Source: Sediminibacterium sp.
Lineage (GTDB): Bacteria; Bacteroidota; Bacteroidia; Chitinophagales; Chitinophagaceae
Length of the DNA: 64,000 bases
Direction: 5' to 3'
NCBI GenBank assembly: GCA_017537025.1
Contig: JAFWCB010000006.1
Span: forward strand, 1 to 64,000
Under the pieces are notes generated by a model. That model was not told where the DNA came from and ran no database searches. It was given only the letters and a program-made list of their open reading frames with translations. Positions 1-60,773 of this stretch are shown piece after piece (within the stretch, counting starts at the first letter, position 1; every line of letters begins with the position of its first letter). Position numbers and translations under genes: made by a program.

Positions 1-1
1 A

Positions 2-43
2 CACCCTATACCCTACACCCTATACCCTACACCTTATACCCTA
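2..43 (-). repeat. Heptamer array, unit TAGGGTR, at nlpC/p60 stop
   Basis: Six consecutive 7-bp units read on the minus strand from 43 down to 2. All are TAGGGTA or TAGGGTG except one TAAGGTG. The first unit starts exactly on the TAG stop codon (43-41) of the NlpC/P60 gene. The array reaches the window edge and may continue upstream. It looks telomere-like by chance only, because other loci in the window use other heptamers. Confidence 0.85.
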
Positions 44-811
44 TTGCTTAAACCTCTTAATGATCCGCAGTTTGTGCGTCCTTTCTCCGGTGTCTGTATT
101 TAATATCCCCATATTATCTATCAGGTCAATTCTTACTTTACCTGAAGCATGGATAATATGCTCTGTATCTAGTAGTATTCCAACATGAGTAATACGACCT
201 TCTTCATTATCGAAAAAAGCCAGATCACCACATATAACTTCTTGAAGAAACCCCACTACATCTCCTAAAGCCGCTTGTTGATAGGCATCTCTAGGTAATA
301 CCATATTAAAAAATCGAAACACCTGTTGGGTAAAACCACTACAATCTATCCCAAATACGGATCTTCCGCCCCACAAATACGGTGAATTCAAATAGGTATA
401 GGCGATATGTTTGATATAATCAGGTATAAATAACGATTGATTGGGGACTGCTGGAGTTCCTTTGTATTCGAAATGATATTTATCAAGCTTTAATTTACCA
501 TGCATGAATAGACCTAAGGAAGCACCAAAAGGGATTTGCATATCTTTACCATTCACTTTTACAGTATTTACATAATCGCCAGTTACATCTTTAGAAACAA
601 TGGTAGCCATGAAATCGGGTACAGCAGCGAGTTGCGCTGTTTGGCACCAGCCTTCATAGCCGTCGTAGATACTCCTTACCCTTAAAAAATCGCGAGAGGT
701 CTCTAAAACCTGTCCTAATTCTCCGAATAACAACTGACTTACCATTTCACTTCTATGAGCTGCGTCTGCTCTCATGGGAACTGCGCCAACTATTGCCATT
801 ACATATGCCAT
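41..811 (-). CDS. NlpC/P60 family cysteine peptidase with bacterial SH3 domain
   Basis: This is a putative cell-wall peptidase, expected to cut gamma-D-glutamyl to diamino-acid bonds in peptidoglycan stem peptides. Starting at 811 the protein has 256 residues. An N-terminal SH3-like region contains RSEMVSQLLFGE (about 20-31). The C-terminal NlpC/P60 domain has the catalytic cysteine in GIDCSGF (Cys157), the catalytic histidine in THVGI (His209) and a third polar residue in IIHASG (His221). The reading frame stays open to 862, but the family usually starts just before the first SH3 strand, so 811 or 799 is the likely start. I see no clear signal peptide. It is divergent from the sigma-factor gene, and its TAG stop opens a heptamer array. 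Family assignment is secure; substrate is inferred. Confidence 0.9.
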   Translation of the reverse strand: MAYVMAIVGAVPMRADAAHRSEMVSQLLFGELGQVLETSRDFLRVRSIYDGYEGWCQTAQLAAVPDFMATIVSKDVTGDYVNTVKVNGKDMQIPFGASLGLFMHGKLKLDKYHFEYKGTPAVPNQSLFIPDYIKHIAYTYLNSPYLWGGRSVFGIDCSGFTQQVFRFFNMVLPRDAYQQAALGDVVGFLQEVICGDLAFFDNEEGRITHVGILLDTEHIIHASGKVRIDLIDNMGILNTDTGERTHKLRIIKRFKQ

Positions 812-880
812 GTATGAATATACGATATTGTATGGAAATAGAAGATTCATGCATCTCAGCAAAAAGATTTATTTTAAAGC

Positions 881-1444
881 GTGGCTAACGATAATTATAA
901 CCATATTACCGATAATGATTTACTGGATCGATATAGAAAAGACGGGAATAATCACTGGTTGGGTATTTTTTTGGAACGCTATACACTCTTACTTTTTGGG
1001 GTTTGTTTGAAGTATTTAAAAAATGAAGAAGAAGCGAAAGATGCGGTACAACAGGTCTTTGTAAAAGCTATACAGGAACTAGGAAAGTACCCTATTTATT
1101 ATCCTAAAAGCTGGTTGTATAAAGTGGCTTGTAATCATTGTTTGATGAAAATTAGGGATAGAAAAACGACCGTTTCAATCGAGCATACCGGGTTTGAGGA
1201 ATCAATAGAACCGACAGCTGAAACTCCTCAATTAAAAGAGCAAAATCTGGTTTGGCTGGAACAAAGTTTACCTGCGCTACAAAGAGATCAAAGAACCTGT
1301 GTAACTTTATTTTATCTTGAAAAAAAGAGTTATCAGGAAATCAGTATGGCAACAGGTTTAAGCCTATTACAAGTGAAAAGTCATATCCAGAATGGGAAAC
1401 GTAATCTTCGCATATTGATTGATAAAAAAAGAAAAGAAGCATGA
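881..1444 (+). CDS. ECF-type RNA polymerase sigma factor
   Basis: This 187-residue protein has the two-domain structure of extracytoplasmic-function sigma factors. Sigma region 2 lies at about 27-68 (with DAVQQVFVKAIQEL) and region 4 at about 130-180, with the helix-turn-helix SYQEISMATGLSLLQVKSHI. It should direct RNA polymerase to a small regulon. The start is GTG at 881: a stop codon sits just upstream in frame and no earlier ATG is available. Its stop overlaps the start of the next gene as ATGA, the usual arrangement of a sigma factor translationally coupled to its membrane anti-sigma factor. The signal it answers cannot be read from the sequence. Confidence 0.93.
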   Translation: MANDNYNHITDNDLLDRYRKDGNNHWLGIFLERYTLLLFGVCLKYLKNEEEAKDAVQQVFVKAIQELGKYPIYYPKSWLYKVACNHCLMKIRDRKTTVSIEHTGFEESIEPTAETPQLKEQNLVWLEQSLPALQRDQRTCVTLFYLEKKSYQEISMATGLSLLQVKSHIQNGKRNLRILIDKKRKEA

Positions 1445-1797
1445 GCGATTGGAAAAACATATTACCGTCTACCAGTTCCATTACTGAGGAACAGCTCATA
1501 CAATATCTTGAAGGGAACGCTTCCCCTGAGCTTCGTTTTGAAATTGAAAAGCAAATGAGCGAGTCGCCCTTTTTAGACGATGCCATAGAGGGTTTGCAAC
1601 AATACAAAAGCCCAACAGAATTATCTGCGCTACAATTACAACTTCGGAAACAATTGAAGCAATCACTTAAGCTTAAAGCTAAACGTACTAAAAGGAGACT
1701 ATTTCAAGATCAACACTGGCTTATCTATGCCGTTTTTAGTGTATTAATTCTTTGTGTTATAGGGTATTTAATTATTCATTTTTATGGTCGTACATAA
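1441..1797 (+). CDS. Small membrane protein, probable anti-sigma factor
   Basis: This 118-residue protein has a soluble N-terminal region (1-88), a basic stretch KRTKRR (81-86) and one predicted transmembrane helix at about 93-114, leaving a very short tail outside. It has no cysteine-histidine zinc motif of the ZAS type. The function is inferred from position: its ATG overlaps the TGA of the ECF sigma gene by 4 bases, and the N-terminal acidic helix (TEEQLIQYLEGNASPELRFE) resembles the start of many Bacteroidota anti-sigma proteins. It could instead be an unrelated small membrane protein. Confidence 0.65.
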   Translation: MSDWKNILPSTSSITEEQLIQYLEGNASPELRFEIEKQMSESPFLDDAIEGLQQYKSPTELSALQLQLRKQLKQSLKLKAKRTKRRLFQDQHWLIYAVFSVLILCVIGYLIIHFYGRT

Positions 1798-1835
1798 TAA
1801 TTGCTTATCTTGTTCTATCAAAATATTAGCGTCAT

Positions 1836-2432
1836 ATGAACAAGTTCAGAGAGCAATTATCCGACGATCTTAATAGCGGTTTTTTAAATCCCGCACTATC
1901 TGATGTGAAGAAGTTGATCATTACTGCTTCCACTAATATTTCTGGGATATTAGATTCGGAGAATGATATTGTGCTTGATGGTAATTTCAGTGGTGTTCTG
2001 TATAGTAAAAAAACAATTCATATCACCCCGGGAGGTATTGTACGCGGAGTTATAATTTGTAATGATATTAAAATTGAAGGTGAGTTCGAAGGTTCCGTAT
2101 ACAGCTTGCGTGTAAATCTCTGCAAAGATTCCATTGTTAAAGGAAACATTCATTGTACCATTATTAATACCGAAATGAATCAGTTTGTAGAAGCCAATAT
2201 AAAATTATTGAGTTTAGAAGCTACCGTATTTGATGCAAGTTCTACTGATTTATTCGCCCAACTAAAAGACATTTTCAATAAGAATAATAAAGACAATAAT
2301 TATATTGGTTTATTCCAAGAAAAATTAAACGAAGTAAAACCTTCTACTAAATTTTATCATCAAACTATTTATGTAGCACCAACTGTAGAGTCATCCCCAA
2401 AAGTTGATGATCCGGAAACAAAAGCCGAATAA
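1836..2432 (+). CDS. Bactofilin-family polymer-forming cytoskeletal protein
   Basis: This 198-residue protein carries a bactofilin/DUF583 beta-helix core at about residues 27-120. The core is short repeated beta-turns such as ISGILDSENDIVLDGNFSGV followed by GGIVRGVIICNDIKIEGEFEGSVYS. Bactofilins self-assemble into membrane-associated filaments and often scaffold cell-wall enzymes. The C-terminal 80 residues are less conserved and probably flexible. The gene lies 38 bp after the putative anti-sigma gene on the same strand and may share its transcript. The nearby NlpC/P60 hydrolase would fit a cell-wall role, but that link is inference. Confidence 0.85.
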   Translation: MNKFREQLSDDLNSGFLNPALSDVKKLIITASTNISGILDSENDIVLDGNFSGVLYSKKTIHITPGGIVRGVIICNDIKIEGEFEGSVYSLRVNLCKDSIVKGNIHCTIINTEMNQFVEANIKLLSLEATVFDASSTDLFAQLKDIFNKNNKDNNYIGLFQEKLNEVKPSTKFYHQTIYVAPTVESSPKVDDPETKAE

Positions 2433-2437
2433 ACTTC

Positions 2438-2457
2438 CTTAAATCTTAAGTTTTTTT
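2438..2457 (+). terminator. Weak intrinsic terminator after bactofilin gene
   Basis: A 5-bp inverted repeat (CTTAA, 3-nt loop, TTAAG) at 2438-2450 is followed by seven T residues on the plus strand. The stem is A+T-rich and weak. It overlaps the 3' coding end of the convergent gene that stops at 2439. Confidence 0.45.
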
Positions 2458-3596
2458 AGTAGGATTAAATTTTCGAGTAACAGTACATTATTGTAACCCG
2501 GACTATAATAATAAAAAGTTCCTGCTTTTGCGGAAGTCATCCATTTTTTATAGGGATTGGGTAACATAGAAGCCATACTAGCAATAAAGAAGCTGAACTC
2601 TTCATTCTCAACTAACGCTTCTATACTTTCTGCTTTTTTTTGGATAATATTGGGTGGTTGTATTCCCCAACGTATTAAAGCTGTGCTTAGCATTACCTGA
2701 TCCATAAAATTACGAGCACTTGCCAAAGCCTGCCGGGTATCTTCTATCAGTTGAGGTTTTAATTTTTCTAATTCAGGAATTGGCTTTACCGACATTAATC
2801 TTGAAACATGATACAATATATTAGATACACTTACATAATGAGGTGAAACATAGTTTGATGTAGTAATATACTTTCGAGACGCAATCAAATCTGTAATCAG
2901 GTGTAAACTCGCAGAGTCTGCGGAAGTCCATTTTAAATTATAATGCTGCACAAAGTAGAGAATATTAGATAGCACACATAGATCAAAGTCGACCGGCATT
3001 TTCACCCCAAACCAGGTTGAATAGGCGCCTACTTTTTTATACTCAGAAAATGTATTGGAAATTTTTTTTTGTTCATTATTGGTATAACCCTGCATAAGTG
3101 CATGAATCTGTTTGGCAGTAGTATCAGATTTTTGTTGCGCCATTAAAAGGATTACCGTGTCGTCCATATCATCGGGTAGCGACTGTTGTTTATCGAACCA
3201 ATTTAACCAACCGCCATTAGTAAAAATGCCGGGGGTATCGGTTGGCCAAAAATTATAGGTATCTCTACCTTTTCTATTTTGGAATTTGTTGAATGAGGGT
3301 AATGCTTCAAGAATAATTTTAGCTGCTATTTTTTGTTGCTCCGGAGATAGATCTTCTTTTATATTATTTAATGTGAATACCGTTAACCCTGTAAAAAAAG
3401 GATTTATATCGGCCTTATACCTGGTTTTATTTAAAGCATACATGCGATAGGAAGGAATCGTTCCTTTGGGAAATACTCCGGATTCTTTGGTTTGTAGTAA
3501 AGCTATACGATTCAGTATATGAGTAATAATAAGGCTATCATTAGCGTAACCCTCACATACAATGAAAAGTAATAGAGAAAAAATAGGACGTTTCAT
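2439..3596 (-). CDS. Secreted protein of unknown function with DxDD-like motif
   Basis: I do not recognise a named family. The 385-residue protein starts with a signal peptide (about 1-18, cleavage near GYA-ND). The rest is predicted mostly helical, without transmembrane helices, and rich in aromatic residues. At 128-147 lies GGWLNWFDKQ followed by SLPDDMDDT. The DMDD core (143-146) matches the DxDD pattern of class II terpene cyclases and recalls acid clusters in other alpha/alpha-toroid proteins. The length, the signal peptide and the absence of QW repeats argue against a true terpene cyclase; an alpha/alpha-toroid fold acting on a periplasmic or surface substrate is more plausible. It is convergent with the bactofilin gene. 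Confidence 0.6.
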   Translation of the reverse strand: MKRPIFSLLLFIVCEGYANDSLIITHILNRIALLQTKESGVFPKGTIPSYRMYALNKTRYKADINPFFTGLTVFTLNNIKEDLSPEQQKIAAKIILEALPSFNKFQNRKGRDTYNFWPTDTPGIFTNGGWLNWFDKQQSLPDDMDDTVILLMAQQKSDTTAKQIHALMQGYTNNEQKKISNTFSEYKKVGAYSTWFGVKMPVDFDLCVLSNILYFVQHYNLKWTSADSASLHLITDLIASRKYITTSNYVSPHYVSVSNILYHVSRLMSVKPIPELEKLKPQLIEDTRQALASARNFMDQVMLSTALIRWGIQPPNIIQKKAESIEALVENEEFSFFIASMASMLPNPYKKWMTSAKAGTFYYYSPGYNNVLLLENLILLKKLKI

Positions 3597-3666
3597 TAAA
3601 AAAGAAAAGGGAAATGTATTAAAAGTATAGCGTTTTATTTTAGAAATGGGAAAGCACTAAAAATAA

Positions 3667-4029
3667 TCATATCCAATCTAATACTGACTTTGTAAGCTCA
3701 TTATTAAGCGCATCACCTGTATTAAGCGTGCTAGAAGGCTCAAAAAGTAGAATACTACATTCTTCTTCCGCAAAGGGGCGATGAAGAACTCCTCTTGGAA
3801 CAATTAAAAATTCACCCTCATTCAATTGAACTTTATGATTTTCAAATTCCATATTAAATGATCCTTTTAATACAAAAAATAGTTCATCTTCATTTTCATG
3901 CTTGTGAAATACAAACTCACCTTTAATTTTTACAAGTTTTACATGTTGCCCGTTTAATTCCCCAACTATTTTAGGTGCCCAGTATTCTGTAAAAAGAGCT
4001 AATTTATTTTCCACTATTACTTTTTCCAT
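3667..4029 (-). CDS. Cupin-domain protein
   Basis: This is a 120-residue single-domain cupin. Motif 1 is seen as HKHENEDELFFVLKG, giving metal ligands His42, His44 and Glu49, with Gly56 at the expected spacing. Motif 2 (GEFLIVPRGVLHRP) supplies His83. Small cupins of this type bind a metal and include isomerases, dioxygenases and sugar-binding proteins, so the reaction cannot be read from the sequence. The gene stands alone between the secreted unknown gene and tmRNA on the same strand. Family assignment is secure, function open. Confidence 0.85.
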   Translation of the reverse strand: MEKVIVENKLALFTEYWAPKIVGELNGQHVKLVKIKGEFVFHKHENEDELFFVLKGSFNMEFENHKVQLNEGEFLIVPRGVLHRPFAEEECSILLFEPSSTLNTGDALNNELTKSVLDWI

Positions 4030-4117: not shown

Positions 4118-4150
4118 AAAAGAGATCCCGCGGTACGCGGGATCTCTTTT
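4118..4150 (-). terminator. Intrinsic terminator of tmRNA
   Basis: A perfect 15-bp inverted repeat with a GTA loop (4118-4132 and 4136-4150) lies directly downstream of the 3' end of tmRNA. The G+C-rich core GATCCCGCG is flanked by A and T runs, so it can act in both directions. Confidence 0.9.
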
Positions 4151-4151
4151 G

Positions 4152-4520
4152 TGGAGCCGACCGGACTCGAACCGGTGTCCAAACTACGTTGCCATTAGCT
4201 TTCTACATGCTTATTTCTTTATTATTTGTAGGCATTCAACAGGAAAAGAACAAACCAATTGAACGCTTAGCTGTATGGTCTTAAACAATAGTCACAGCCT
4301 TCTATTGTAGCAGCCTCTTTTGTTTTGAGTCGGCGGCGGCACCTGGTAAGAAGCAAACCTGTGCGGCGGCCCAAATGACTATCTAATCACTGATTAGGCA
4401 GCCATGGCATACTGTGTATTGCCAGTTATAGTTTGAATATTCAGATTAAAGTGCTAATTATCCAACGCACTGCATGCTTACACCAACCGTAACCTTAGCT
4501 GTCGAAACCAAAACGGCCCC
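4152..4520 (-). ncRNA. ssrA: Transfer-messenger RNA (tmRNA)
   Basis: tmRNA rescues stalled ribosomes and tags the incomplete protein for proteolysis. The 5' end (GGGGCCG, 4520-4514) pairs with CGGCTCC (4159-4153) to form the 7-bp acceptor stem with one G-U pair. It is followed by the conserved TTTGGTTTCGAC. The 3' side carries the T arm GGTTCGAGTCC. CCA is not encoded. The tag reading frame runs to a TAA stop and reads GNTQYAMAA, ending in the AA proteolysis signal, with GGC as resume codon. Length is 369 nt, usual for a one-piece tmRNA. Confidence 0.97.
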
Positions 4521-4524
4521 GTTT

Positions 4525-4559
4525 TAGTGAGTAGTGATAAGTGTAAAGTGCAAAGTTAC
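4525..4559 (+). repeat. Heptamer array, unit WAGTGNN, upstream of tmRNA
   Basis: Five 7-bp units in perfect register: TAGTGAG, TAGTGAT, AAGTGTA, AAGTGCA and AAGTTAC. The array covers the tmRNA leader and overlaps its -7 element. Confidence 0.75.
4551..4558 (-). promoter_or_regulatory. Bacteroidota -7 element for ssrA
   Basis: TAACTTTG on the minus strand matches the Bacteroidota -7 consensus TAnnTTTG exactly. Transcription would begin near 4546, about 26 nt before the mature 5' end of tmRNA. A good -33 element at the standard spacing is not evident. Confidence 0.6.
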
Positions 4560-4566
4560 AAGAAAT

Positions 4567-4650
4567 TAGTCAGTGGTTATTGGTCAATAGTAGTTGCCTT
4601 TCCCCCTACTAACTAATGACTAATGACTAATGACCATTGACCATTGACTA
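4567..4650. repeat. Inverted pair of heptamer arrays, unit TAGTCAN, at rseP stop
   Basis: On the minus strand, from the TAG stop of rseP (4650-4648), six units follow in register with consensus TRGTCAN (4650-4609). After a short C-rich spacer, four units of the same family lie in the opposite orientation (4567-4594, TAGTCAG to TAGTAGT). The eight bases TGGTCAAT at 4581-4588 are complementary to 4636-4643, so the pair can fold. Confidence 0.85.
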
Positions 4651-5997: not shown

Positions 5998-6021
5998 AAC
6001 TACAACTCTTTACTTTTTACT

Positions 6022-24770: not shown

Positions 24771-26591
24771 ATGTTGAAGAATCCATTTAGAAATCTAAGT
24801 ATACGGAACAAGCTTTTTATCTCCCATTCGCTTATTCTCCTGATTACGGTTGGGGTCATTTATATCACCATAAAAGTAAATGATAAAAGGCTTCGTATTG
24901 AGGAGCTATTATCGAGAGTAGAAGACATCCGTATACGATCACAGCAGCAGAATGAAGCAAAACAGGATTTTTTGTTGAACGAGCGGTATTCAGAGGATTT
25001 TTTCAAAACAGGATACAGTGACGCGATTGTAAAATATAGTAGTTTATTAAAAGAGATTGATGCAGATCTCCTGCTAATCAATAAAAATGAATTAAGTAGT
25101 AGGCCGGAGATCAAAGAAAGAATTTTACAAATAACACATCAGGTTCATTTTCAAGATGCGCTTTTCGGAAGAATAATAGATTCCGTAAAACAGTTAGGCT
25201 TTGGTTCAACAGGATTATCCGGCAGCTTAGATAATTTTACAAGGGAATTAATTAGAAGCCGACTTATTAATCCAACGATTGTTGAGACACTAAAAAGAAA
25301 GGAACAACAGTATGTTTTTATGAAAGATAGTAAGGCTGCTGTTGAATTTGATACACTGATTACGAATGCTATCCATCAATATGCCAACAGTGCCTCAACA
25401 TTGGCAGTACTGAATAGTTACAATAATACTTTTAAACGTATTATTTCATTGGAAAATAGTATTGGATTAAATAAACAAAAGGGCCTACGAAGTGAGTTAG
25501 CCGAACAGAGTAAGAAAACAGATGAGCAAGTAAAAGCCATCATTATTTCAATTAAAAAATCCTATGAAAAAGACTTAGATAAACTTGAATGGATATTTCT
25601 CGGACTTATCGGAATCGTTTTTACTGTAGGTTTACTAATCAGTTATGTATTAGCCGTTGAAATCACAAAACCTATTATTGAACTAAATAATGCGGCTAAA
25701 GAAGTAGTGGCTACAAAATTTAAAGATGATATTCATCCTAAACATATTGATCTGCAACGTTCCGATGAAATTGGCGAGCTTACTTACAACTTTAATCTGG
25801 CTGTTCGGAAAATCAGGAGAAGTGTTCAGATTATTCAAGACAAGAATAATAGTTTAGAATTAAAAAACCGACAGCTCACTGAAAATGAAATAGATCTCAA
25901 GAAAATAAATGCCCAAAAAGATAAATTTTTATCGATTATATCGCACGATATGCGCGCCCCATTATCTAGCATTATCGGGTTTCTTGATTATTATAAAGAC
26001 AATTTCAAAAGTTTTTCTGAAACAGAAATCGACTTTGTATCTAGTAATCTGAATGCGCATGTAAAAAAAGTAGTGGAGATGCTAGATGGTTTGTTGTTAT
26101 GGGCACGTTCTCAATCAGGAGAAATACAAACGAACCTACAACCCATTGATTTGGCCGCCATCATAACGGATACGGTAGATATTTTAAACCAAAGTGCCAC
26201 CAATAAAAAAATCACTATTTCGCTTAATTTACATAATCAGCTCGTTTGGGCAGATAAGAATATGAGTGCTTTCATCATTCGAAATGTTTTATCCAATGCC
26301 ATCAAATTCACACATGAAGGCGGGCGAATAGAGATTAAAACCCAACGCAACAAAAAATATGCTTTTGTAATAATAAAAGATAATGGAGTAGGTATACCAG
26401 AAGCCAATTTGAGTAAGTTGTTTCAGGATAATGTAAACTTTTCCACTTTTGGTACGGCTAATGAAAAAGGCATTGGTTTAGGCTTAGTACTATGTAAAGA
26501 TTTCATGAATAAGCAAAACGGTAATATTGAAATAGAGAGCTCTCCCGGGGAGGGTACGAGGGTGAATTTATTGTTTCCGCTGATAAGTTAG
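24771..26591 (+). CDS. Membrane sensor histidine kinase
   Basis: This 606-residue kinase has a first membrane helix at about 17-35, a periplasmic helical sensor domain of about 240 residues, and a second helix near 276-297 (LGLIGIVFTVGLLISYVLAV). A HAMP domain (about 297-350) and a short coiled coil follow. The dimerisation domain has ISHDMRAPLSSIIGF with His392 as phospho-acceptor. The ATP-binding domain has NVLSNAIKFTHEGG, DNGVGIP and GIGLGLVLCKDFM. No response regulator is nearby, so its partner is elsewhere. It is divergent from the ABC-F gene. Its TAG stop begins a heptamer array. Confidence 0.93.
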   Translation: MLKNPFRNLSIRNKLFISHSLILLITVGVIYITIKVNDKRLRIEELLSRVEDIRIRSQQQNEAKQDFLLNERYSEDFFKTGYSDAIVKYSSLLKEIDADLLLINKNELSSRPEIKERILQITHQVHFQDALFGRIIDSVKQLGFGSTGLSGSLDNFTRELIRSRLINPTIVETLKRKEQQYVFMKDSKAAVEFDTLITNAIHQYANSASTLAVLNSYNNTFKRIISLENSIGLNKQKGLRSELAEQSKKTDEQVKAIIISIKKSYEKDLDKLEWIFLGLIGIVFTVGLLISYVLAVEITKPIIELNNAAKEVVATKFKDDIHPKHIDLQRSDEIGELTYNFNLAVRKIRRSVQIIQDKNNSLELKNRQLTENEIDLKKINAQKDKFLSIISHDMRAPLSSIIGFLDYYKDNFKSFSETEIDFVSSNLNAHVKKVVEMLDGLLLWARSQSGEIQTNLQPIDLAAIITDTVDILNQSATNKKITISLNLHNQLVWADKNMSAFIIRNVLSNAIKFTHEGGRIEIKTQRNKKYAFVIIKDNGVGIPEANLSKLFQDNVNFSTFGTANEKGIGLGLVLCKDFMNKQNGNIEIESSPGEGTRVNLLFPLIS

Positions 26592-26671
26592 TGGATAGTG
26601 TATAGTGCATAGTGAGTAGTGAACTACCCTATACCCTATACCCTACACCCTATCCCTTACACCTTATATCT
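26589..26671. repeat. Two opposed heptamer arrays after sensor kinase
   Basis: From the stop codon TAG (26589) five units with consensus TAGTGNN run to 26623. Six units of the form TAYNCCY follow in register from 26630 to 26671 after a 6-base joint. Read on the minus strand the second group is TAGGGTA-like, a degenerate inverted partner of the first: GTGTATAGTG and GGGTATAGGG differ at two of ten positions. Confidence 0.85.
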
Positions 26672-26688
26672 TATTTTCGTAATTTTGT

Positions 26689-40861: not shown

Positions 40862-41440
40862 ATGTTTGAATTCAGCTTTTTGGATGTTTCAGGATCATTC
40901 GGATTAGTGGCCTACGGTGCACTTACACTCAACTTTATCATCGGCATGTTTATGAGTACGGGCATCAAAAAAACAAGTTATTGGAAAAAATTACCCCCTA
41001 TTGTAAATAAATACCCACTCCTAACTATCCATAATTTTACGGCTTATACAGCTGTAAGTGCCGTTTTTTTACATGTATTTTTTTTATTGTTAGATAAGCA
41101 GGCAGGATTCACTTTTTCACAATTATGGAACCCGCTTCATTTTAATCATCAACCCCAAATAATATTATTAGGCACTATAGGCAGTATTGGTTTTCTATTC
41201 CTATTGCTCACTTCTCAAAAGTTTATAAAAAACAATTTGCGATTTCGTATTTGGAAAAACATCCATTTACTGGCTTATGTATTTGCTATATCTTTTTTAA
41301 TTCATGGGCTATTAATGGACCCCTTACTTAAAGATCGACCGGTTGATTGGTTGGATCCTGAAAAATTCTTCTCTGAGTTTTGTGTATTGCTTTTGTTAGC
41401 AGCAACGGTATTGAGGGTAAGATATCATTTTAGACGATAG
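40862..41440 (+). CDS. Ferric-reductase-like membrane haem protein
   Basis: From ATG 40862 this 192-residue protein has about five to six membrane helices. Two His pairs face each other in adjacent helices: His57 and His71 (IHNFTAYTAVSAVFLH), and His135 and His148 (IHLLAYVFAISFLIH). Spacings of 13 and 12 residues between the pairs are those of ferric reductase-like domains that bind two haem groups. There is no FAD or NAD domain, so it would need a separate partner as in MsrQ-type proteins. Its TAG stop begins the heptamer array at 41431-41465. It is divergent from the cold-shock gene. Confidence 0.8.
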   Translation: MFEFSFLDVSGSFGLVAYGALTLNFIIGMFMSTGIKKTSYWKKLPPIVNKYPLLTIHNFTAYTAVSAVFLHVFFLLLDKQAGFTFSQLWNPLHFNHQPQIILLGTIGSIGFLFLLLTSQKFIKNNLRFRIWKNIHLLAYVFAISFLIHGLLMDPLLKDRPVDWLDPEKFFSEFCVLLLLAATVLRVRYHFRR

Positions 41441-41474
41441 ACCGTAGACTGTAGACAGTAGAATGTCTATAGTC
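41431..41474 (+). repeat. Heptamer array TAGACNN with hairpin at gene end
   Basis: Five units (TAGACGA, TAGACCG, TAGACTG, TAGACAG, TAGAATG) run from 41431 to 41465. The second starts on the TAG stop (41438), so the first lies in the last codons. GACT-G-TAGACA (41447-41457) and TGTCTA-T-AGTC (41464-41474) make an 11-bp stem with one G-U pair and a 6-nt loop. Confidence 0.88.
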
Positions 41475-41491: not shown

Positions 41492-41519
41492 CTCCTTATA
41501 CCTTATACCTTACACCTTA
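41492..41519 (-). repeat. Heptamer array TAAGGTN at DUF5103 stop
   Basis: On the minus strand, four units (TAAGGTG, TAAGGTA, TAAGGTA, TAAGGAG) start exactly on the TAA stop codon at 41519. The convergent gene upstream has its own, different array. So both gene ends at this junction carry one. Confidence 0.85.
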
Positions 41520-42782
41520 CAATCCATTCCTCACCAACCTATACCCTATTAACTCATCATGCCTGGCACCAAAAGGACGATAATAAAAGAAAATACTATA
41601 CTCATTTTCTGTTTCCCAATAATTGCCTTCTGTCAAAGCAGGATCAGACTTTTGCTTCACTCCTTTCGCCTCTTGGGTTACGTACTGATAGTTATAATAT
41701 CCATTTTTTAAAAAAATCTTTTTAGTATACATACCTGTTTCGGCATCAAACTTCATGAGTGAAGTGTCATTTATTTGATTACCGGTGAACTCACCCAATA
41801 TATAGACGTTTTTACCTACCAATGGCAACCCTTTATCCGGTTGAAAACGAAATGTAACCCAGCCATACTCGGTTTGCCACCAAGGGTTTAGCGACTCTGA
41901 ACTACTGATATTGCTAAAACCATTTTGATCCCGATAAAACAAATAACGCAAACTACTTCTTACGATATCCGGGCGTATCAATACTTCCACAGGTAATGTG
42001 GTTTGATCTATTTTTTCTACACGATCACTCTCAAAACGAAAACTTCTTAAATCGGCCCAACGATATTCTTTTCCCGCAGGGAAAATACAATCTAACTCCG
42101 GATTAAATTCTAAAACATTACCTCGTATAAAACTGGGTTGAATATTTTTTACCGCATTATCCCATCTTCCATTTTGTAGTATTACCGTGTTGAATTGTTG
42201 TGGACTAAATGCATTAAGTCCCTGCACGTCTATGGCCAATTGAATTTTTTGGTGTGTGCGCATCAGCTGATTATCGAATGGTTGCTCAACCCTTGCCGCA
42301 ATAATGCTATTATTATCTACTACAAAAAATCTTTTCGTGAAAATCAATTTCGATGTATCCGCATCTTTGTACACTTTTAATAAATAGTTCCCGCTTCGTG
42401 ATGGCATGGCGTTTCGTTCAGGCAAAAGCGCTTGATAATGCACATAAGGTATGCGGGTAATGGATGCTACCCGATAGGTATTGATTCTATTCTGCTGAAA
42501 TCCGCGTATGTAATCGAAAGGACTCCATTGCGCCTCGCTCCAATCGGCATTGCATAATTGATAGGTATAATAATAGTTAGCCGGAATAGCAGCCAGATCG
42601 TCAAAATGTAACTCTAGTTGATCTCCACTATTTAGGTTTATGATAGGTAGTGCAAGCTGATTATTCTGCGGGAATAATTTCACGGTTTTAACAGTAGTAC
42701 TATACAGTTTATCGGGTTCTCTTTGGGCATTCAAATGGCCTAAGAAGCCTATAAAAAAGAAAAGAAAAAGATACTTAATCAT
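41517..42782 (-). CDS. Type IX secretion system plug-like protein (DUF5103)
   Basis: This 421-residue protein has a signal peptide (about 1-19, ending LNAQ) and the DUF5103 architecture, which includes the plug protein found with the SprA translocon of the Bacteroidota type IX secretion system. Landmarks are YYTYQLCNADWSEAQWSPFD, then FDYIRGFQQNRIN and a C-terminal immunoglobulin-like part with YVILGEFT-type sequence (KNVYILGEFTGNQINDTSLM) and NGYYNYQYV. Its role as plug is inferred by family. No other T9SS component is in the window. It starts 59 bp from the divergent FtsX gene. Confidence 0.85.
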   Translation of the reverse strand: MIKYLFLFFFIGFLGHLNAQREPDKLYSTTVKTVKLFPQNNQLALPIINLNSGDQLELHFDDLAAIPANYYYTYQLCNADWSEAQWSPFDYIRGFQQNRINTYRVASITRIPYVHYQALLPERNAMPSRSGNYLLKVYKDADTSKLIFTKRFFVVDNNSIIAARVEQPFDNQLMRTHQKIQLAIDVQGLNAFSPQQFNTVILQNGRWDNAVKNIQPSFIRGNVLEFNPELDCIFPAGKEYRWADLRSFRFESDRVEKIDQTTLPVEVLIRPDIVRSSLRYLFYRDQNGFSNISSSESLNPWWQTEYGWVTFRFQPDKGLPLVGKNVYILGEFTGNQINDTSLMKFDAETGMYTKKIFLKNGYYNYQYVTQEAKGVKQKSDPALTEGNYWETENEYSIFFYYRPFGARHDELIGYRLVRNGL

Positions 42783-49940: not shown

Positions 49941-49975
49941 TAGTCAGTGGTTAGTGGTTAGTGCATAGTGGTTAG
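49941..49975 (+). repeat. Heptamer array TGGTTAG-like between proS and DUF898 genes
   Basis: Five units in register (TAGTCAG, TGGTTAG, TGGTTAG, TGCATAG, TGGTTAG) fill the 44-bp gap between two genes on the minus strand. Unlike most other arrays this one does not begin at a stop codon and its TAG-bearing strand is opposite to the genes. Confidence 0.8.
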
Positions 49976-49979
49976 TAAA

Positions 49980-52493: not shown

Positions 52494-54032
52494 ATGAAAA
52501 AAATATTTCTTCTTTCCATATCTGCTATCCTAGGTATTAGTGCAATAGCACAAAACCCCGATGAGGCATTACGAACAGCTTGGTTTACACAACAAGGTAC
52601 CGCCCGTGTTATGGCTATTGGAGGGGTGATGGGATCTTTGGGTGGTGATATTAGCGCTAACCATATAAACCCCGCCGGTATTGGGTTGTACAAGAATAAA
52701 GAATTTGTTTTATCACCGGGCTTTCTTTTCAACAACAATAAATTCAATTACAGAGGTACCGATTCCACGGCAAAAAATAACGGATTTGGATATGGCACTT
52801 CAGGATTTGTACTCGCAGGTACTAACAAAGGACAGAGTAAGTGGACAAGCTCTGCTTTTGCCATTTCCGTAAATCAGATTGCCAATTATAATAATCGCGT
52901 TCAGTTCAGAGGCTTTAATAATTACAGTTCTTTTACAGAACAATATTTAGAAGAGCTTACCAGAGATAGAGCCGATACAAATGCGGCCTTGAGTAATTAT
53001 ATTTTTGGATCATCATTGGCATTCAGAACTTTTTTGGTAGATACATTAGCAGCACCGAATGGTTCTGTTATTGGCTATCAAAGTTTAGTACCGATTTCAA
53101 CGGGTACTTATCAAATTTATGATGCCAGAACAAGTGGTGGTTATCATGAAATAGCGCTGGGTTTTGCGGGCAATATGGCCGATAAATTATATGTAGGAGG
53201 AAGTTTAACGATACCGATTGTTAAGTATAGTAGAGAATTATTTTACAGTGAAAAAGATGCCACCACAAACCCTGCCAATGAATTCAGTTTCTTTGAATAC
53301 AGAGAAACATTTACATCTAATGCGATTGGTATAGGTGCAAAGTTGGGAGCTATTTATAAACCGGCTGAATATATTCGATTAGGCTTTGCTTTTCATACCC
53401 CACAGTTTATGGCTTATGTAGATAAAATTCGCTCTTCTATCGTTGCTAACACAGAGAATTATGCAGGACTCAGAAAGGCAACGAGTGATGCATTGAACAG
53501 TGGTAATGCGGGAGAAAGAAAATATAATGTAACAACGCCCTGGCGTATGATTGCTAGTGCTAGTTATGTTTTTAGAGAAACAAAAGATATACGTAGACAA
53601 AGAGCGTTTATAAGTGCAGATGTTGAATATGTAAATTACAGAGCCGCGCGTTTTCAGCCTGCCAGTGAAAATTTAAATAACAGTGTCTTACGAGACTATT
53701 ATAGTAATTTGAACAGTACCGTAAAAGATATATACAGAGGAAATATTAATATAAAGCTAGGTGGTGAATTAAAGTTTAAAACATTTATGGTACGTGCCGG
53801 CGGTGCTTATTATGGAAGTCCTTATGCAGATGCAGCTATTAAAGCCAGCAGAACCGTATTATCCGGGGGTTTAGGATATAGAAACAAGGGCATGTTCATA
53901 GACCTTACTTATTCTCATGTAATGAATAAAGATGCGGTATTTGCCTACCGTTTAGCAGATAAAGCCAACACTTTTGCCAATCAAACCGGCAGTGCCGGAA
54001 CAGTAATGGTTACCTTAGGGTTTAAGCTTTAG
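52494..54032 (+). CDS. OmpP1/FadL/TodX-family outer-membrane transport protein
   Basis: This 512-residue protein has a signal peptide (about 1-20) and a long beta-barrel with family features: an N-terminal NPDEALRTAWFTQQGTARVM hatch-like part, GSLGGDISANHINPAGIGLY, and a C-terminal MVTLGFKL. The family carries hydrophobic molecules across the outer membrane, but the substrate here is not known. It may share a transcript with the lipoprotein upstream. A weak stem (GGCTT-AAGCC, 54069-54082) follows the gene. Confidence 0.85.
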   Translation: MKKIFLLSISAILGISAIAQNPDEALRTAWFTQQGTARVMAIGGVMGSLGGDISANHINPAGIGLYKNKEFVLSPGFLFNNNKFNYRGTDSTAKNNGFGYGTSGFVLAGTNKGQSKWTSSAFAISVNQIANYNNRVQFRGFNNYSSFTEQYLEELTRDRADTNAALSNYIFGSSLAFRTFLVDTLAAPNGSVIGYQSLVPISTGTYQIYDARTSGGYHEIALGFAGNMADKLYVGGSLTIPIVKYSRELFYSEKDATTNPANEFSFFEYRETFTSNAIGIGAKLGAIYKPAEYIRLGFAFHTPQFMAYVDKIRSSIVANTENYAGLRKATSDALNSGNAGERKYNVTTPWRMIASASYVFRETKDIRRQRAFISADVEYVNYRAARFQPASENLNNSVLRDYYSNLNSTVKDIYRGNINIKLGGELKFKTFMVRAGGAYYGSPYADAAIKASRTVLSGGLGYRNKGMFIDLTYSHVMNKDAVFAYRLADKANTFANQTGSAGTVMVTLGFKL

Positions 54033-54060
54033 GAAGGTATAGGGTGTAAGGAGTAAGGTC
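54033..54060 (+). repeat. Heptamer array TARGGNN after FadL-family gene
   Basis: Four units in register (GAAGGTA, TAGGGTG, TAAGGAG, TAAGGTC) start directly after the TAG stop (54030-54032), offset by one base from the phase in which the stop would itself be a unit. Confidence 0.65.
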
Positions 54061-54366
54061 GAAGCTTGGGGCTTATAAAAGCCTATTTTCTTTTGTGTTT
54101 ATTTGAAATTAAGTACCTCTATGCTATGGAAGTACAGTTGTATATAGAATTGACCAAATACTTAAAATCGTAAAAAATTGCCATCTGAACAAAAGCTACA
54201 AAAAAGCAACTAGAGACAATTACGAATAATAGAAAAGCAATAAACCAACGTTTACCTAATTACTACATCCACTGTGAAACACGTCGATAAAATAGAAGAT
54301 CTTGAATTAATCTAAAAGTGGCGGTTAATTAATCAGCTTCACTTAGTATACATATTTACAACTAAT
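54061..54366. other. Intergenic stretch between convergent genes, no gene seen
   Basis: This A+T-rich gap of about 300 bp separates the FadL-family gene from rimO, which converge on it. It holds a weak stem-loop with a T-rich tail at 54069-54090. A 15-codon frame at 54126-54173 has no supporting features. I see no RNA gene in it. Confidence 0.5.
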
Positions 54367-56366: not shown

Positions 56367-56928
56367 TTACACAGTTTTTCGTTCCTAATAAACCATATCG
56401 CCTACCTGCTTTCATAAAATAATTAGCTTTCACTTTTCCATTATCATAGTAAAATTGCTGAAGCCCTTCTTCATAGCCTTTATGGTAATTCATTCTCTTT
56501 ACCAATAATCCCTGCGGATTCCACTCTTTACATTCTCCTTGATATTCTCCATCCTCAAAATAATACTCCCATTTTTTATTTCCGTTTGGCCACCAACTGG
56601 CTAATTTTCCAACTTTCTTTCCATCTTTAAAAAAACGTTGCTCTTTCCATTTACCACCTGGATAAAATTGCTTCCATTCGCCTTCTTCTCTCCCCTTTTT
56701 AAAACATACTATTTCGATAGTATCTCTGGTACGGGAGTCTAAGGAATAAATAATGCCTGTAAAGGGTTTAGCATTCCAAACCAAAATACCATTTTGTATA
56801 ACAGGTTTAATAGAAGCGCTATTAAACTTTTCAAATCTAAAAGCTGGCTCAACAGTATTTGTACAAGCCGACATTAACAGTATTATCAAACAAATGATAC
56901 TACCTTGAAACCGTACCTGCCGTACCAT
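56335..56928 (-). CDS. MORN-repeat / YwqK-like lipoprotein
   Basis: Starting at ATG 56928 the protein has 197 residues. It has a lipoprotein signal ending LLMSAC and five or more MORN-like repeats, each near GxWxxYYxxGxxK (for example GEWKQFYPGGKWKEQRFFKD and KEWNPQGLLVKRMNYHKG). Such repeats occur in YwqK-type proteins, often labelled antitoxin, but nothing here supports that role; they bind partners or membranes. The start at 57021 is open but would overlap the YHYH gene by 122 bp. Position between SCO and YHYH genes suggests a shared, unknown envelope task. Confidence 0.8.
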   Translation of the reverse strand: MVRQVRFQGSIICLIILLMSACTNTVEPAFRFEKFNSASIKPVIQNGILVWNAKPFTGIIYSLDSRTRDTIEIVCFKKGREEGEWKQFYPGGKWKEQRFFKDGKKVGKLASWWPNGNKKWEYYFEDGEYQGECKEWNPQGLLVKRMNYHKGYEEGLQQFYYDNGKVKANYFMKAGRRYGLLGTKNCVNVSDSIFKKL

Positions 56929-57676
56929 AAAATCCGCTACCATTGATATAAGGATCAGTTGAAGTAATATGATAATGGTAAATGCCATTGGGATATTCTG
57001 TTGTAGCATGTGAATGGCCATGTAGCGCGTCTAAATTACTATTCGTAACAGTAGCACCATTTTCAGTTGGACCATACACCGGAAAACCATCCAATAAAAA
57101 TCCTAATAATGCGCTCTTAGATGCTTTTACCATGGTTAAATACAAGGGCTCAACATGATAATGATAATCTCCACTTTGTGCAGGATGCCCCCAATACTGA
57201 TCAAAAGAAACTACTTCGTTTGTTAAGGGCTGACTGGGGCCAGCGTATTGATTAAAGAACGGAACGCCGTTTAAAGCAACGCCAATGGGTCCTAATGGTG
57301 TTGCTGCTGAAGTAGCTGCCTTAGTTGGATTCAGGGGAATCTTAAAAGTATAGTTTTGCGCACTGATAGAATTAGGGTTTTTACTAAAAGTATTACCACC
57401 AAATGTAGTACCACTAAAAGCTTCGTACAAACTATTCGTGGTAGCATAGTATACACTTTTATGATCGGGTGCACCCGTTACTTTAATATAAACATAAGAG
57501 GCATCGACCGTGATACTGGTAGCTCCATATATCTTAGTATATACATCAGGCACCCCGGTACCCACTACAGTGGATGTACCTGAAGAAGTTGATGTGCTAC
57601 TAGATTTCTTGCAACTAACGCTAACTATGGTAATCGTTGCGAGAGCCATAACGGATATCAATGAAAGGATTTTCAT
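56900..57676 (-). CDS. YHYH-domain protein, predicted lipoprotein
   Basis: This 258-residue protein has a lipoprotein signal (MALATITIVSVSCKKSS, Cys22), a Ser/Thr-rich linker and the YHYH domain. The two YHYH motifs are seen as SGDYHYHVEPLYL and NGIYHYHITSTDPYING, along with LLGFLLDGFPVYG. The histidine arrangement suggests metal binding, but no activity is established for the family. Its end overlaps the MORN-like gene start. It is preceded by the DUF1501 gene at 57753, with a heptamer array in the 76-bp gap. Confidence 0.88.
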   Translation of the reverse strand: MKILSLISVMALATITIVSVSCKKSSSTSTSSGTSTVVGTGVPDVYTKIYGATSITVDASYVYIKVTGAPDHKSVYYATTNSLYEAFSGTTFGGNTFSKNPNSISAQNYTFKIPLNPTKAATSAATPLGPIGVALNGVPFFNQYAGPSQPLTNEVVSFDQYWGHPAQSGDYHYHVEPLYLTMVKASKSALLGFLLDGFPVYGPTENGATVTNSNLDALHGHSHATTEYPNGIYHYHITSTDPYINGSGFYGTAGTVSR

Positions 57677-57727
57677 AATAGTAATTTTATAGTTAGACGC
57701 GTTAATGAAGAGAAACCTTCGCTTATA

Positions 57728-57755
57728 TAATCTTCAATCTGGAATCTGGAATCTA
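57728..57755 (-). repeat. Heptamer array NAGATTN at DUF1501 stop
   Basis: Four units (TAGATTC, CAGATTC, CAGATTG, AAGATTA) in register on the minus strand; the first begins exactly on the TAG stop codon of the DUF1501 gene. Only the first carries a stop. Confidence 0.8.
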
Positions 57756-58994
57756 AATAAACCCTAATCCCTCCTTACCCTTAAACCCCGGCAGAATATA
57801 ATCCAAGCTGGCACTGGCCCCCATTCTTTTGGTTAATATTTCTTGTAAAATAGTTCGATAATCGGTAGTAACGGCCAGATCTACTCCATTATCCAATGCC
57901 TCTGTTGCAAGCCCTTTCCAATCGCCGTACATTTTTCCGCCTTTTACATTACCCCCCATCACCATCATGGCATTACCATAACCATGATCGGTGCCATTAC
58001 TTTTATTGGATTTTATCCTTCTTCCAAACTCACTCATAACAAGTACAGTTAAACGCCCATGATAGCGATCTAGATCATTATAAAATGCATGCAAATTTTG
58101 AGACAAACTTTTCACTAATCCGGGGAACCGATAGGCTTGGTATTCATGCGTATCCCAACCGCCATAATCTACTGTAGCTACGTGTAACCCAATATCCAGC
58201 TTAATGAGCTGTGCAATATTCTTCATCGACTTTCCAAAATCGTCGTCCATATATTGTGCATCTCTATCCGGTTTATAATCAATTGCTTCTCCGTTACCCC
58301 TACGTGGAATTTTCTTCTGAAGCATATCAATGGTGTAAAAAGTTTGTAAGGCTGTTTTACCAAGTGCCGAACCTAAAGGATCATTGTATGCTTTGCGAAT
58401 AATATTATTAAAATGACCATCTGCCTGTAAGGCAAAATCTCCCAGATTATTAACAGACACGGCTGTTGGTGCGCCCCATAAAGAAAGCGGCATTGCAGCG
58501 CCGGCAGCTATGGCCGTGAAATTGGATTTATTATTGATCGTATTCAAATAACGCGCTAACCAACCTTCATTAATTGGTTGCTTCTTTTGAATCCCTTTTT
58601 CGATCATGTCTTGAGCATCAAAATGACTTCTGGTGCCATTTGTTAATCCGCATGAATGAATAATAGCTAACTGATCGGCATCATATAATTCTTTCAATTG
58701 TGCTGCCGACGCATGTAATCGGAAATCCGTTTGTCCCAATCCATTTTTTAGTAATAAGCCTGCATTTTCGCCACTTTCAGTAACGCGAAGTGCCTGTTCT
58801 CTGTCGGCAAAATAATGCCGGTCATTTACCGGTGCCACTAATTGTAAACCATCACAACCTCCGCGTAAAAAAACTAATACAAATAATTCTCCCGTTTGCA
58901 GATCATTATTTTTTAATGCCAAACCGCTAATCCCCGTGAGTAACATACCCGCGGTTGCTGAACTACATGTTTGTATAAAGTCTCTTCTTTGCAT
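57753..58994 (-). CDS. DUF1501 protein with Tat signal
   Basis: This 413-residue protein begins MQRRDFIQTCSSATAGMLLTG, a twin-arginine signal. DUF1501 belongs to the alkaline phosphatase superfamily; landmarks are LVFLRGGCDGLQLVAPVN, HLDGSFN-like (AQDMIEKGIQKK and THEYQAYRFPGLV) and VMSEFGRRIKSNKSNGTDHG. It probably hydrolyses or binds an envelope or extracellular substrate with metal, but no activity has been shown. It is the partner of the DUF1800 gene, 1 bp upstream. DUF1501-DUF1800 pairs recur in Planctomycetes, Bacteroidota and others. Confidence 0.88.
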   Translation of the reverse strand: MQRRDFIQTCSSATAGMLLTGISGLALKNNDLQTGELFVLVFLRGGCDGLQLVAPVNDRHYFADREQALRVTESGENAGLLLKNGLGQTDFRLHASAAQLKELYDADQLAIIHSCGLTNGTRSHFDAQDMIEKGIQKKQPINEGWLARYLNTINNKSNFTAIAAGAAMPLSLWGAPTAVSVNNLGDFALQADGHFNNIIRKAYNDPLGSALGKTALQTFYTIDMLQKKIPRRGNGEAIDYKPDRDAQYMDDDFGKSMKNIAQLIKLDIGLHVATVDYGGWDTHEYQAYRFPGLVKSLSQNLHAFYNDLDRYHGRLTVLVMSEFGRRIKSNKSNGTDHGYGNAMMVMGGNVKGGKMYGDWKGLATEALDNGVDLAVTTDYRTILQEILTKRMGASASLDYILPGFKGKEGLGFI

Positions 58995-58995
58995 A

Positions 58996-60606
58996 TTATC
59001 TAACCTGAAAATCGGGTAACAATAAAATACCGCTGATCAACCACGCAATTTTTTCTTTCCTGAACGGACCTCTTAATCTATTTTCATTATCCGGCTTTCC
59101 TCCATCAGCTAAATGTACCGCCATCGACTGAACAATATCTGCATCTGGTAAGTAGCCTAATATTTTTTTCATCCAAAACTCCGTAATCTCTCTATACGTT
59201 TTTAATGAGTCAGGTGTTTTATCACCTACCTCATGATAAGCATAATTATGCCAACTATGATTGAGCATATTAATTGGGAAATTCCATCTTCTGAGTAACA
59301 TTTCTGAATTGATCCAATACTCTGAATGATCGGGGTAGCCTGTAGGAGTTGGCCATGCGAAAGGTTGCTGCCCCATTTGTAATAAACTCCACATTAAATT
59401 ATCGTTCGGAATAATATCTGCATTTACAGCCCTACACGCCGAAATCACTAACTCTAATGGTCGCTTTAATTTTTTACCCCAGGTAAGTTTACACTCTTCC
59501 GATAATGCGATGAATTGTACAACATGCGCAATTTGATCGGGTTTGTTTACGTATAACATCCACTCCCTTGCCGCTTTTTCGATCAATTGCTCACTTGGTG
59601 TATCGGATACCAATCGGGTACATAATTTTCTACAAATAAACTTAGCGGTTCCGGGATGTGCTGCTAGAATATCTAACACTTTTTTTCCGTCGGCTAAAGG
59701 TGGTTGGTTAGGACTAAACTCTACCCCTAAAATTCTTTTTTGATAATTATCGTGCCATTGTTCGAAATAATAGAATTCTCCATTATTCGGGAAGCGGCCT
59801 CCTTTCCAATCATCTGCGCCGTCGGCTATCGTCCACCCGGTAAAAGCACGAGCTGCTTCGTATACATCCTCATCGATATATCCTTCAGGCATACCTGTTG
59901 TGGCGCCGGGCACTTCGCGCCAGCGATTGTATAAATGGTTCAAATAATGTTCTGCTCCTAAAGTATGTAATTCAAATAATTCGCGTGCATAGTTTTCGTT
60001 AGCGGGGCTTGCCTTACTGCTTGCATTATCTAAATACACTTGCATGGAAACACTTTTAGCGACAGCCTCCAGCATTTGCCTAAAATTACCCAACGCATTT
60101 TTGCGAATAACTTCTCTATCGTAGATAGGAAATGTAACAGCAACCCTATCATCTATATTTATACTTACGTTAAAATGATTATGCCAAAAATCTACCAGCA
60201 ATTCACGCAATTGCCATTTGCTATATATACCACGTAAAATGGTAGCGCCAAAAACTTGTTTGGCCGGATAAATTTTCTCTTCATACGGAACTGAGTCTTG
60301 ATACAGGGGCCAAAGCTCTTGCAAAGAGGCATTGATTAGAGTATACGGTCTGTTTTCTTTTATATTTTTTTTACCGCCACTTGAGCCATATTGCTCATAA
60401 TTGATGGGGTATGTAAGTTTTTGAATTTTTTGGTTGAAGATATCGTCGGCGGAATCGATCGGGTTTACTTGCTCTTCGAGATAATCTTTCAAACCAAGTT
60501 CTTTGATTCTCTTCAAAGAATACTCATCGGGGCCATAGCCTAATTTATTCAGCATGGCATAATCGAAAGGAGGTTGGGTTATTTTGCTGAATATGGAGAT
60601 GCTCAT
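58996..60606 (-). CDS. DUF1800 protein
   Basis: This 536-residue protein has no evident signal peptide; the first residues are MSISIFSKITQPPFDYAMLN. DUF1800 landmarks are LRELLVDFWHNHFNVSIN, NYARELFELHTLGAE and ARAFTGWTIADGADDWKGG, with many histidines (HNHF, HTLG), possibly binding metal. The domain is helical. It is always or often paired with DUF1501, as here, with start and stop separated by 1 bp. I do not know the activity. Confidence 0.88.
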   Translation of the reverse strand: MSISIFSKITQPPFDYAMLNKLGYGPDEYSLKRIKELGLKDYLEEQVNPIDSADDIFNQKIQKLTYPINYEQYGSSGGKKNIKENRPYTLINASLQELWPLYQDSVPYEEKIYPAKQVFGATILRGIYSKWQLRELLVDFWHNHFNVSINIDDRVAVTFPIYDREVIRKNALGNFRQMLEAVAKSVSMQVYLDNASSKASPANENYARELFELHTLGAEHYLNHLYNRWREVPGATTGMPEGYIDEDVYEAARAFTGWTIADGADDWKGGRFPNNGEFYYFEQWHDNYQKRILGVEFSPNQPPLADGKKVLDILAAHPGTAKFICRKLCTRLVSDTPSEQLIEKAAREWMLYVNKPDQIAHVVQFIALSEECKLTWGKKLKRPLELVISACRAVNADIIPNDNLMWSLLQMGQQPFAWPTPTGYPDHSEYWINSEMLLRRWNFPINMLNHSWHNYAYHEVGDKTPDSLKTYREITEFWMKKILGYLPDADIVQSMAVHLADGGKPDNENRLRGPFRKEKIAWLISGILLLPDFQVR

Positions 60607-60663
60607 TACGATACTAAGGTAAAGAACCTATAACGTAATCTACCATATAGTTGGTATATAACT

Positions 60664-60773
60664 CAGACGAAAGACGGTAGACTTTAGACGGGAGAAGGAA
60701 ATTAGACTGTAGGCTGTAGATCGTAGTTGGCGTATAGGCACGAAACGGTCTACCGTCTCCGGTCTATCGTCTA
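60664..60773. repeat. Opposed heptamer arrays TAGACNN at prfC stop
   Basis: From the TAG stop of prfC (60773, minus strand) four units of TAGACNN run to 60746. In the opposite orientation, five units of the same family run from 60664 to 60698 and a further four (TAGACTG, TAGGCTG, TAGATCG, TAGTTGG) from 60703 to 60730. The 11-base arms 60672-60682 and 60748-60758 are perfect inverted copies and can form a hairpin enclosing the other units. Confidence 0.88.

Follow-up and report, generated by a model that had tools for sequence, protein, structure and literature searches.

Inward-running heptamer arrays with interchangeable cores at gene edges in a Sediminibacterium draft genome

Why should a tandem repeat with a unit of seven bases begin on the stop codon of the gene beside it, at one gene end after another, with a different heptamer at each? 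The question is raised by the first 64 kb of contig C21 (JAFWCB010000006.1, positions 1 to 64,000; hereafter the window) of a Sediminibacterium sp. draft genome (G000; 3.19 Mb, 29 contigs), for which the original prediction listed seven gene ends carrying heptamers on the gene's own stop codon and further arrays at 4525, 49941 and 54033. That observation mostly holds and is partly confirmed, and the interpretation attached to it is partly supported. The arrays start at a gene edge and run inward into the spacer, this direction being a stronger rule than the stop codon; between G000 and its nearest relative, G038, a site tends to persist and its repeat word is sometimes exchanged. Arrays in the window were confirmed with Tandem Repeats Finder and by direct reading, genes were called with our own codon-usage script, and gene products at array ends were assigned by Pfam, which also supported a ferric-reductase-like gene that the script had missed.

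The arrays had been called unlikely by chance, and the counts bear this out. In the intergenic DNA of the window, lag 7 gave 119 comparison windows with at least 16/21 matches, whereas lags 6 and 8 gave none. Across 864 kb (the window plus 800 kb), period 7 accounts for 69 intergenic and 15 coding arrays, compared with 1 and 3, respectively, for period 6 and 8 and 2 for period 8, so that the control periods are not equally frequent. Among 446 spacers 30 bp or longer (92 kb in total), 52 contain arrays, 64 in all, whereas order-1 Markov versions of the same spacers held a mean of 0.37 and a maximum of 2 arrays in 30 rounds. Genome-wide, four TAGs at spacing 7 were matched 153 times and the backwards pattern, a control that is also fed by real arrays, 54 times. 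Arrays lying more than 60% within called genes were excluded from the set of 107 arrays analyzed below. The period had been described as always exactly 7; it dominates, but a smaller class with period 8, in which CGTC is the core of several arrays, occurs in both G000 and G038 (C19:148007-148043, C19:172369-172417, and others in G000; L346:17086-17151), and the distances separating intergenic CGTC copies have maxima at 8, 16, and 24. A CCCGTAN-type heptamer array also lies in phase within a coding gene, both in G000 (C17:215268-215297, corresponding to L028:15268-15297) and in G038 (L388).

The relationship with stop codons is real in G000. When arrays were detected with the stop codon masked, those of the sense TAG type located no more than 30 nt after a stop kept its phase in 18 of 29 cases, against 1/7 by chance (p = 4e-9), and 17 arrays pointing the opposite way were distributed across all phases. 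AATCT arrays shared one common phase with the stop in five of seven cases in G000; in G038, six such arrays occupied six phases. The claimed tie of array starts to stop codons does not extend to G038 and G054, where one array in nine was in phase, and in G000 the 5' neighbour of 36 of 85 oriented arrays is a gene start. On account of both results, the idea that each array is seeded by a stop codon was rejected as a general rule, and starting on a stop codon is better described as one case of starting at a gene edge. A safety device, in which TAG at spacing 7 would halt translation in every frame beyond the gene end, is arithmetically sound, since 7 mod 3 = 1 and a TAG heptamer therefore stops each frame within three units; yet AATCT arrays after stops supply the gene with no stop of their own, and arrays also start at gene starts and sit between divergent genes, which makes this explanation extremely unlikely.

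The stop position under most arrays is ancestral: the stop lies within one residue of the orthologues' stop at 24 of 33 array ends, compared with 99 of 122 array-free ends. The 33 are ends whose orthologues come from relatives without an array there (at most 14/21 matches), and of 161 genes with orthologues, the 6 that had intermediate scores were excluded. The prfC gene ends in TAG in G000 and in TAA in most of the same-genus orthologues listed, and in some genes, among the gene ends listed, the last residues have been overwritten by array-coded ones with the length barely changed. Invasion creating new stops predicts that zero, one, or two units precede the stop about equally often, whereas the masked test found 15 arrays with none and three with one, and this candidate was rejected as a general account. 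A looser scan of 35 ends placed the array at offset 0 from the stop in 14 cases, at -7 in three, at -14 in seven (at least one of these being a chance TGA), at -28 in one, at -4 in one, and further downstream in nine; invasion can account for a minority of arrays.

Direction is the stronger regularity. The cores recognized in G000 are TAGTG, TAGGG, TAGAC, TAGTC, TAGGT, TAAGG, GAATT, and AATCT, with 21 of 107 arrays having no assignable core. Adjacent arrays form 31 pairs (21 in co-directional, six in convergent, and four in divergent gene contexts), and arrays are densest in convergent spacers (25 in 38) and rare in divergent ones (11 in 101). In all 26 pairs with both arms assigned, the arms face inward, a count that is partly circular because the orientations were taken from those same pairs. 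An independent test was provided by TAGTG arrays of other genomes, in which 21 clusters at 18 loci had a facing partner downstream and none upstream (at least 120 stretches with 129 clusters; 10 of the clusters, near locus ends, were excluded and 98 had no partner). Titles were available for 80 of the stretches and for 12 of the 18 loci, and the phyla inferred from these record titles include Planctomycetota, Bacillota, Bacteroidota, Pseudomonadota, and Fibrobacterota. In viral contigs, TAGTG pairs were inward in eight cases and outward in none, some of the eight contigs resembling near copies of each other, and TAGGG gave one inward and no outward pair. Four of five assigned pairs in G038 are inward, and the array is nearer its 5' gene in 64 of 84 cases in G000 and 20 of 22 in G038. 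In addition, each of two viral-class contigs contains two facing TAGTG pairs separated by about 1.28 kb, in the manner of a frame around a gene (L447, 3227-3288 and 4507-4568; L449, 1129-1190 and 2411-2472).

The two arms of a pair behave independently. Different cores are found in 8 of 26 pairs, and at the two variable positions of the unit the arms of one pair match no better than arms taken from different loci; copying of one arm from the other is not supported by these unlike cores and unshared dinucleotides. In neighbouring TAGTG and AATCT units, five core positions mismatch at 2-18% and the other two at 46-58%, a 5+2 pattern of conserved and variable positions that is blurred in GAATT units. 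AATCT and GAATT units in G000 look like random draws from a single pool (p = 0.5 and 0.8, respectively). Among 82 AATCT units of G000 and G038, the variable pairs TC and GG make up 60 and the recombinants TG and GC only three, and the units therefore behave as discrete beads.

These properties bear on a serious rival, namely that the facing arms are selected as RNA hairpins, forming stem-loops at transcript ends that terminate or protect mRNA, so that any pairing core would suffice. Compared with shuffled sequence, pairs with one core in both arms form much more stable folds (mean z -6.6, n = 18; 60 single-base shuffles per pair), and the concentration of arrays in convergent spacers, their rarity in divergent ones, and the persistence of sites while cores change would all be expected of such hairpins. 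A stem should be indifferent to direction, yet the direction is strict; the eight pairs with different cores fold weakly (mean z -2.8, n = 8), the variable bases are unmatched between arms, and single arms exist. The T run of an intrinsic terminator, sought as TTTT within 12 nt after the pair, follows 2 of 26 pairs only. Serious as it is, selection for hairpins seems to us rather doubtful as the origin of the arrays.

Comparison with relatives showed which features of a site are kept. In a scan of 36 further members of the genus, five TAGs spaced 7 apart were matched 70 times in G038 and three times in G040, and the reversed pattern (GAT at spacing 7) in G020, G030, G038, G040, and G042; a 385-kb sample of G011 contained no period-7 array at the same threshold. 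G038 shares approximately 84% DNA identity with the window over the stretch compared. Of 33 orthologous spacers, seven were too short and were excluded; among the remaining 26, an array was also present in G038 in five of the seven spacers with an array in G000, compared with 2 of 19 other spacers (p = 0.006), two of the searched stretches having been picked for their G000 arrays. At some shared sites both genomes have the same core and the arrays differ in length by a whole number of units, as in one difference of exactly 14 bp. At other shared sites the core differs: C19:123595 carries a GAATT pair in G000 and an AATCT pair in G038, C19:128600 carries TAGGG and TAGAC, respectively, and C19:337473 a weak TAGGT/TAGTG pair in G000 and CGGGT in G038. 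A separate observation concerns a 3.8-kb stretch (L007:16173-19999; L417 in G038, contig C532) that is 99% identical between the two genomes in surroundings of about 80% identity, which suggests a recent transfer or a mobile element.

The direction, the independence of the arms, the kept sites, and the exchanged cores together suggest that units are added to DNA 3' ends at gene edges, with other arrays as the source of the copies. We propose tentatively, at somewhat less than even confidence, that degenerate arrays are made and remade in this manner, and infer a cycle of breakage, short-homology priming, copying from other arrays, joining, and renewal. A break in a spacer or a stalled replication fork would leave a 3' end at a gene edge; this end could anneal over a few bases to the core of an array already present and copy units off it. 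Both sides would be extended independently, at times with different cores, and then joined, and the facing product could fold into a hairpin, which would make the site prone to breakage and remaking. A TAG core could cover a stop codon harmlessly, as it reads TAG there, which would explain why arrays sit on stop codons.

Several results weigh against this proposal. The stop phase of TAG arrays is not repeated in two other genomes with few such arrays (1/4 in G038 and 0/5 in G054), single arrays in G000 are nearer their 5' gene in only 18 of 29 cases (p = 0.26), and the viral contigs include eight inward and two outward GAATT pairs, one contig being counted in both classes, and no inward and four outward AATCT pairs; the direction of AATCT consequently failed as a universal property. 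The core exchange amounts to two clear sites and one weak site, a copying intermediate was not seen, and no donor array was traced. Units are also related within some arrays, somewhat so for TAGTG in G000 (identity 0.19 vs. 0.11, p = 0.016, one pure array excluded) and AATCT in G038 (p = 0.019), and strongly so for TAGTG arrays of other genomes (0.67 vs. 0.12).

Such within-array relatedness is what slippage would give. Plain polymerase slippage at short repeats, combined with selection against arrays in genes and a period of 7 favoured by polymerase geometry, was proposed by Mrazek and colleagues (as cited in PMC4679880 and PMC4692102), and slippage is the cause offered for heptamers in the literature covered. 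It would account for the whole-unit differences between relatives, for a pure AACCCGT array in G038 where G000 has a short degenerate one, and for the mostly identical units in TAGTG arrays of other genomes. Against it, many loci share the same cores, the similarity of AATCT and GAATT units within arrays of G000 does not exceed that between arrays, and neither the direction nor the facing pairs with unlike cores nor the exchanged cores are predicted, so that we regard slippage by itself as an unlikely explanation. Any cause must accommodate a TAGTG direction common to several phyla, independent arms, apparently pooled units for some cores, and the exchange of words at a kept site, and the G000/G038 pair makes the cause directly testable by comparative or population sequencing.

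A different possibility is that the arrays are mobile elements on which Y1/HuH transposases of the RAYT type act, an idea already advanced for REP sequences. Among 60 genomes, 16 of the 19 that carry arrays have Y1_Tnp, as do 7 of the 41 array-free ones (p = 1e-6); the corresponding figures are five of six and 2 of 31 inside the genus (p = 3e-4), and nine of nine and 7 of 16 among genomes of 2.5-3.9 Mb (p = 0.008), all of these statistics ignoring phylogeny; a RAYT model matched in 15 of 19 genomes with arrays and 5 of 41 without. Outside the genus, however, the association is weak (11/13 vs. 5/10, p = 0.17), and G030, which has the most matches, and G057 lack a Y1 gene, both being incomplete drafts. 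Heptamer arrays adjoin a RAYT-type gene at 1 of 14 loci inspected (L305 in genome G044) and at none of those in G000; palindromes of another kind adjoin several RAYT-type genes, including those of G000. RAYT as the heptamer maker is therefore unsupported by gene neighbourhoods despite the co-occurrence, the Y1/HuH link is only a correlation and a lead, and we regard the handling of the arrays by such transposases as very unlikely. Below the 80-bit cut-off, a RAYT-like gene (NF047646) was found in L296:4694-5257 (G000 contig C23; 48.5 bits) and in L298:1555-2133 (G038 contig C316; 48.9 bits), with CGTCAGAC motifs and a flanking CGTC-type palindrome in both genomes; CGTC REPs, by contrast, have been described as lacking a dedicated transposase (PMC3733652). 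Repeats made by a reverse transcriptase in a telomerase-like manner were rejected, as RVT_1 (PF00078), the only such family searched, had no match in G000 (94.7% complete). A dedicated enzyme that adds or exchanges units at gene edges, possibly a Y1/HuH single-strand transposase swapping pooled 7-base units and remaking facing arrays with interchangeable cores, also seems distinctly unlikely; if it existed, its signature would be the TAGTG direction shared by at least five phyla, and the period-8 CGTC arrays would be a related product.

The arrays of the window illustrate these rules. At all seven gene ends first listed, array and stop codon are in phase, with reservations at 41438 and 57755. 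A TAGGG-type array at 1-43 (minus strand) starts on the stop codon (41-43) of an NlpC/P60 gene, assigned by Pfam, and continues to the contig end; since the contig terminates within the array, any partner arm is unassembled. The rseP (peptidase M50) stop codon is the start of a TAGTC-type right arm (4606-4650, minus strand), and the additional array reported at 4525 is its partner, a left arm of TAGTG and then TAGTC-like units (4525-4591, plus strand) that begins 5 bp from the 5' end of the tmRNA gene (4149-4520, minus strand). On the sensor kinase stop codon starts a TAGTG left arm (26589-26622, plus strand), facing a right arm with a different core, TAGGG (26625-26674, minus strand), that had been overlooked and stops 14 bp short of the ispH/LytB start codon. 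The spacers upstream of the minus-strand tmRNA (4521-4650) and of ispH (26592-26688) are nearly all array, and any promoter there would therefore lie within the array or the preceding gene.

The array assigned to 41438 truly starts one unit earlier, inside the ferric-reductase-like gene (Ferric_reduct by Pfam), as a TAGAC left arm (41431-41466, plus strand) whose second unit supplies the stop (41438-41440); its right arm has a different core, TAAGG (41494-41521, minus strand), and lies on the TAA stop codon of the DUF5103 gene, which encodes a type 9 secretion system (T9SS) plug protein. This plug gene and a Bacteroidales small signal recognition particle RNA are both indicative of Bacteroidota. 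Of the other additional arrays, that reported at 49941 is a lone TAGTG arm (49943-49976, plus strand) between co-directional genes, located off the stop and pointing against the gene that ends beside it, and the TAGGG/TAAGG array at 54033-54074 (plus strand) directly follows a stop (54030-54032) but does not share its phase; in G038 the orthologous spacer lacks an array and is about 300 bp shorter. The first unit of an AGATT array (57729-57755, minus strand) includes the DUF1501 stop codon, but only this unit has TAG, the others having CAG or AAG. On the prfC stop codon starts a TAGAC right arm (60745-60773, minus strand), opposite a degenerate TAGAC-type left arm (60665-60726, plus strand) that was likewise missing from the first list; in G038, the right arm alone is present, on the same stop codon.

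Cyanobacterial short tandemly repeated repetitive (STRR) heptamers comprise several heptamer families per genome, as do the arrays of G000. The suggested kinship with cyanobacterial heptamers is borne out. More broadly, heptamers are reported to be the most abundant simple-repeat class in the majority of genomes surveyed (Mrazek 2007, cited in PMC4679880). TAACTGA heptamers, known from Beggiatoaceae, cyanobacteria, and a few Bacteroidetes, provide stops in all three frames (PMC4679880); like the present arrays they are intergenic, sporadically distributed, and in some cases overlap stop codons, but they consist of a single exact heptamer that, in the genome chiefly studied, mostly lies a short way before start codons. 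REP, BIME, and REPIN sequences are similarly dispersed and sporadic, lie mostly downstream of genes, and form opposite-orientation dimers, often of unlike partners (PMC3733652). The REP unit, however, forms a stem-loop by itself, is 20-40 bp long, and is tagged with GTAG or CGTC (PMC3733652), whereas the heptamers are not palindromes and form stems only between facing arms, and a cognate RAYT gene is flanked by the repeat only at the single locus of 14 mentioned above.

The closest resemblance is to the degenerate heptamers of Xanthomonas (GGGAATC, (GGGANTN)n) and Nostoc (GGGGA(C/T)T), which are dispersed in intergenic DNA, are few between divergent genes, and lie nearer the 5' gene and at or across stop codons, those of Xanthomonas also forming facing pairs (PMC4692102). 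G000 shares with them an above-chance intergenic 7-bp unit with conserved and variable positions, dispersal, scarcity between divergent genes, nearness to the 5' gene, and positions at and over stops, and with Xanthomonas the facing pairs. Unlike those genomes, in which one G-rich unit each was studied as a G-quadruplex, G000 has at least eight cores, mixed pairs, core exchange, and a stop phase, and GGG is confined to the TAGGG core (12 of 107 arrays). As PMC4692102 treats G-richness as its own subset, G-poor cores bar the arrays from that subset and not from the heptamer kind. We take the arrays, which often fill the spacers between gene edges, to be a Bacteroidota form of the heptameric repeats of cyanobacteria and Xanthomonas. 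Core exchange, mixed-core pairs, and pooled units were not reported in the literature searched, most subscription papers being outside its coverage. Because heptamers at stops and facing pairs are already on record (PMC4692102), the arrays belong to a known kind with new features: heptamers beside stop codons and facing pairs were known before, and what is new is the many cores in one genome, the mixed pairs, the pooled units, the exchange of cores, and the phase with the stop.

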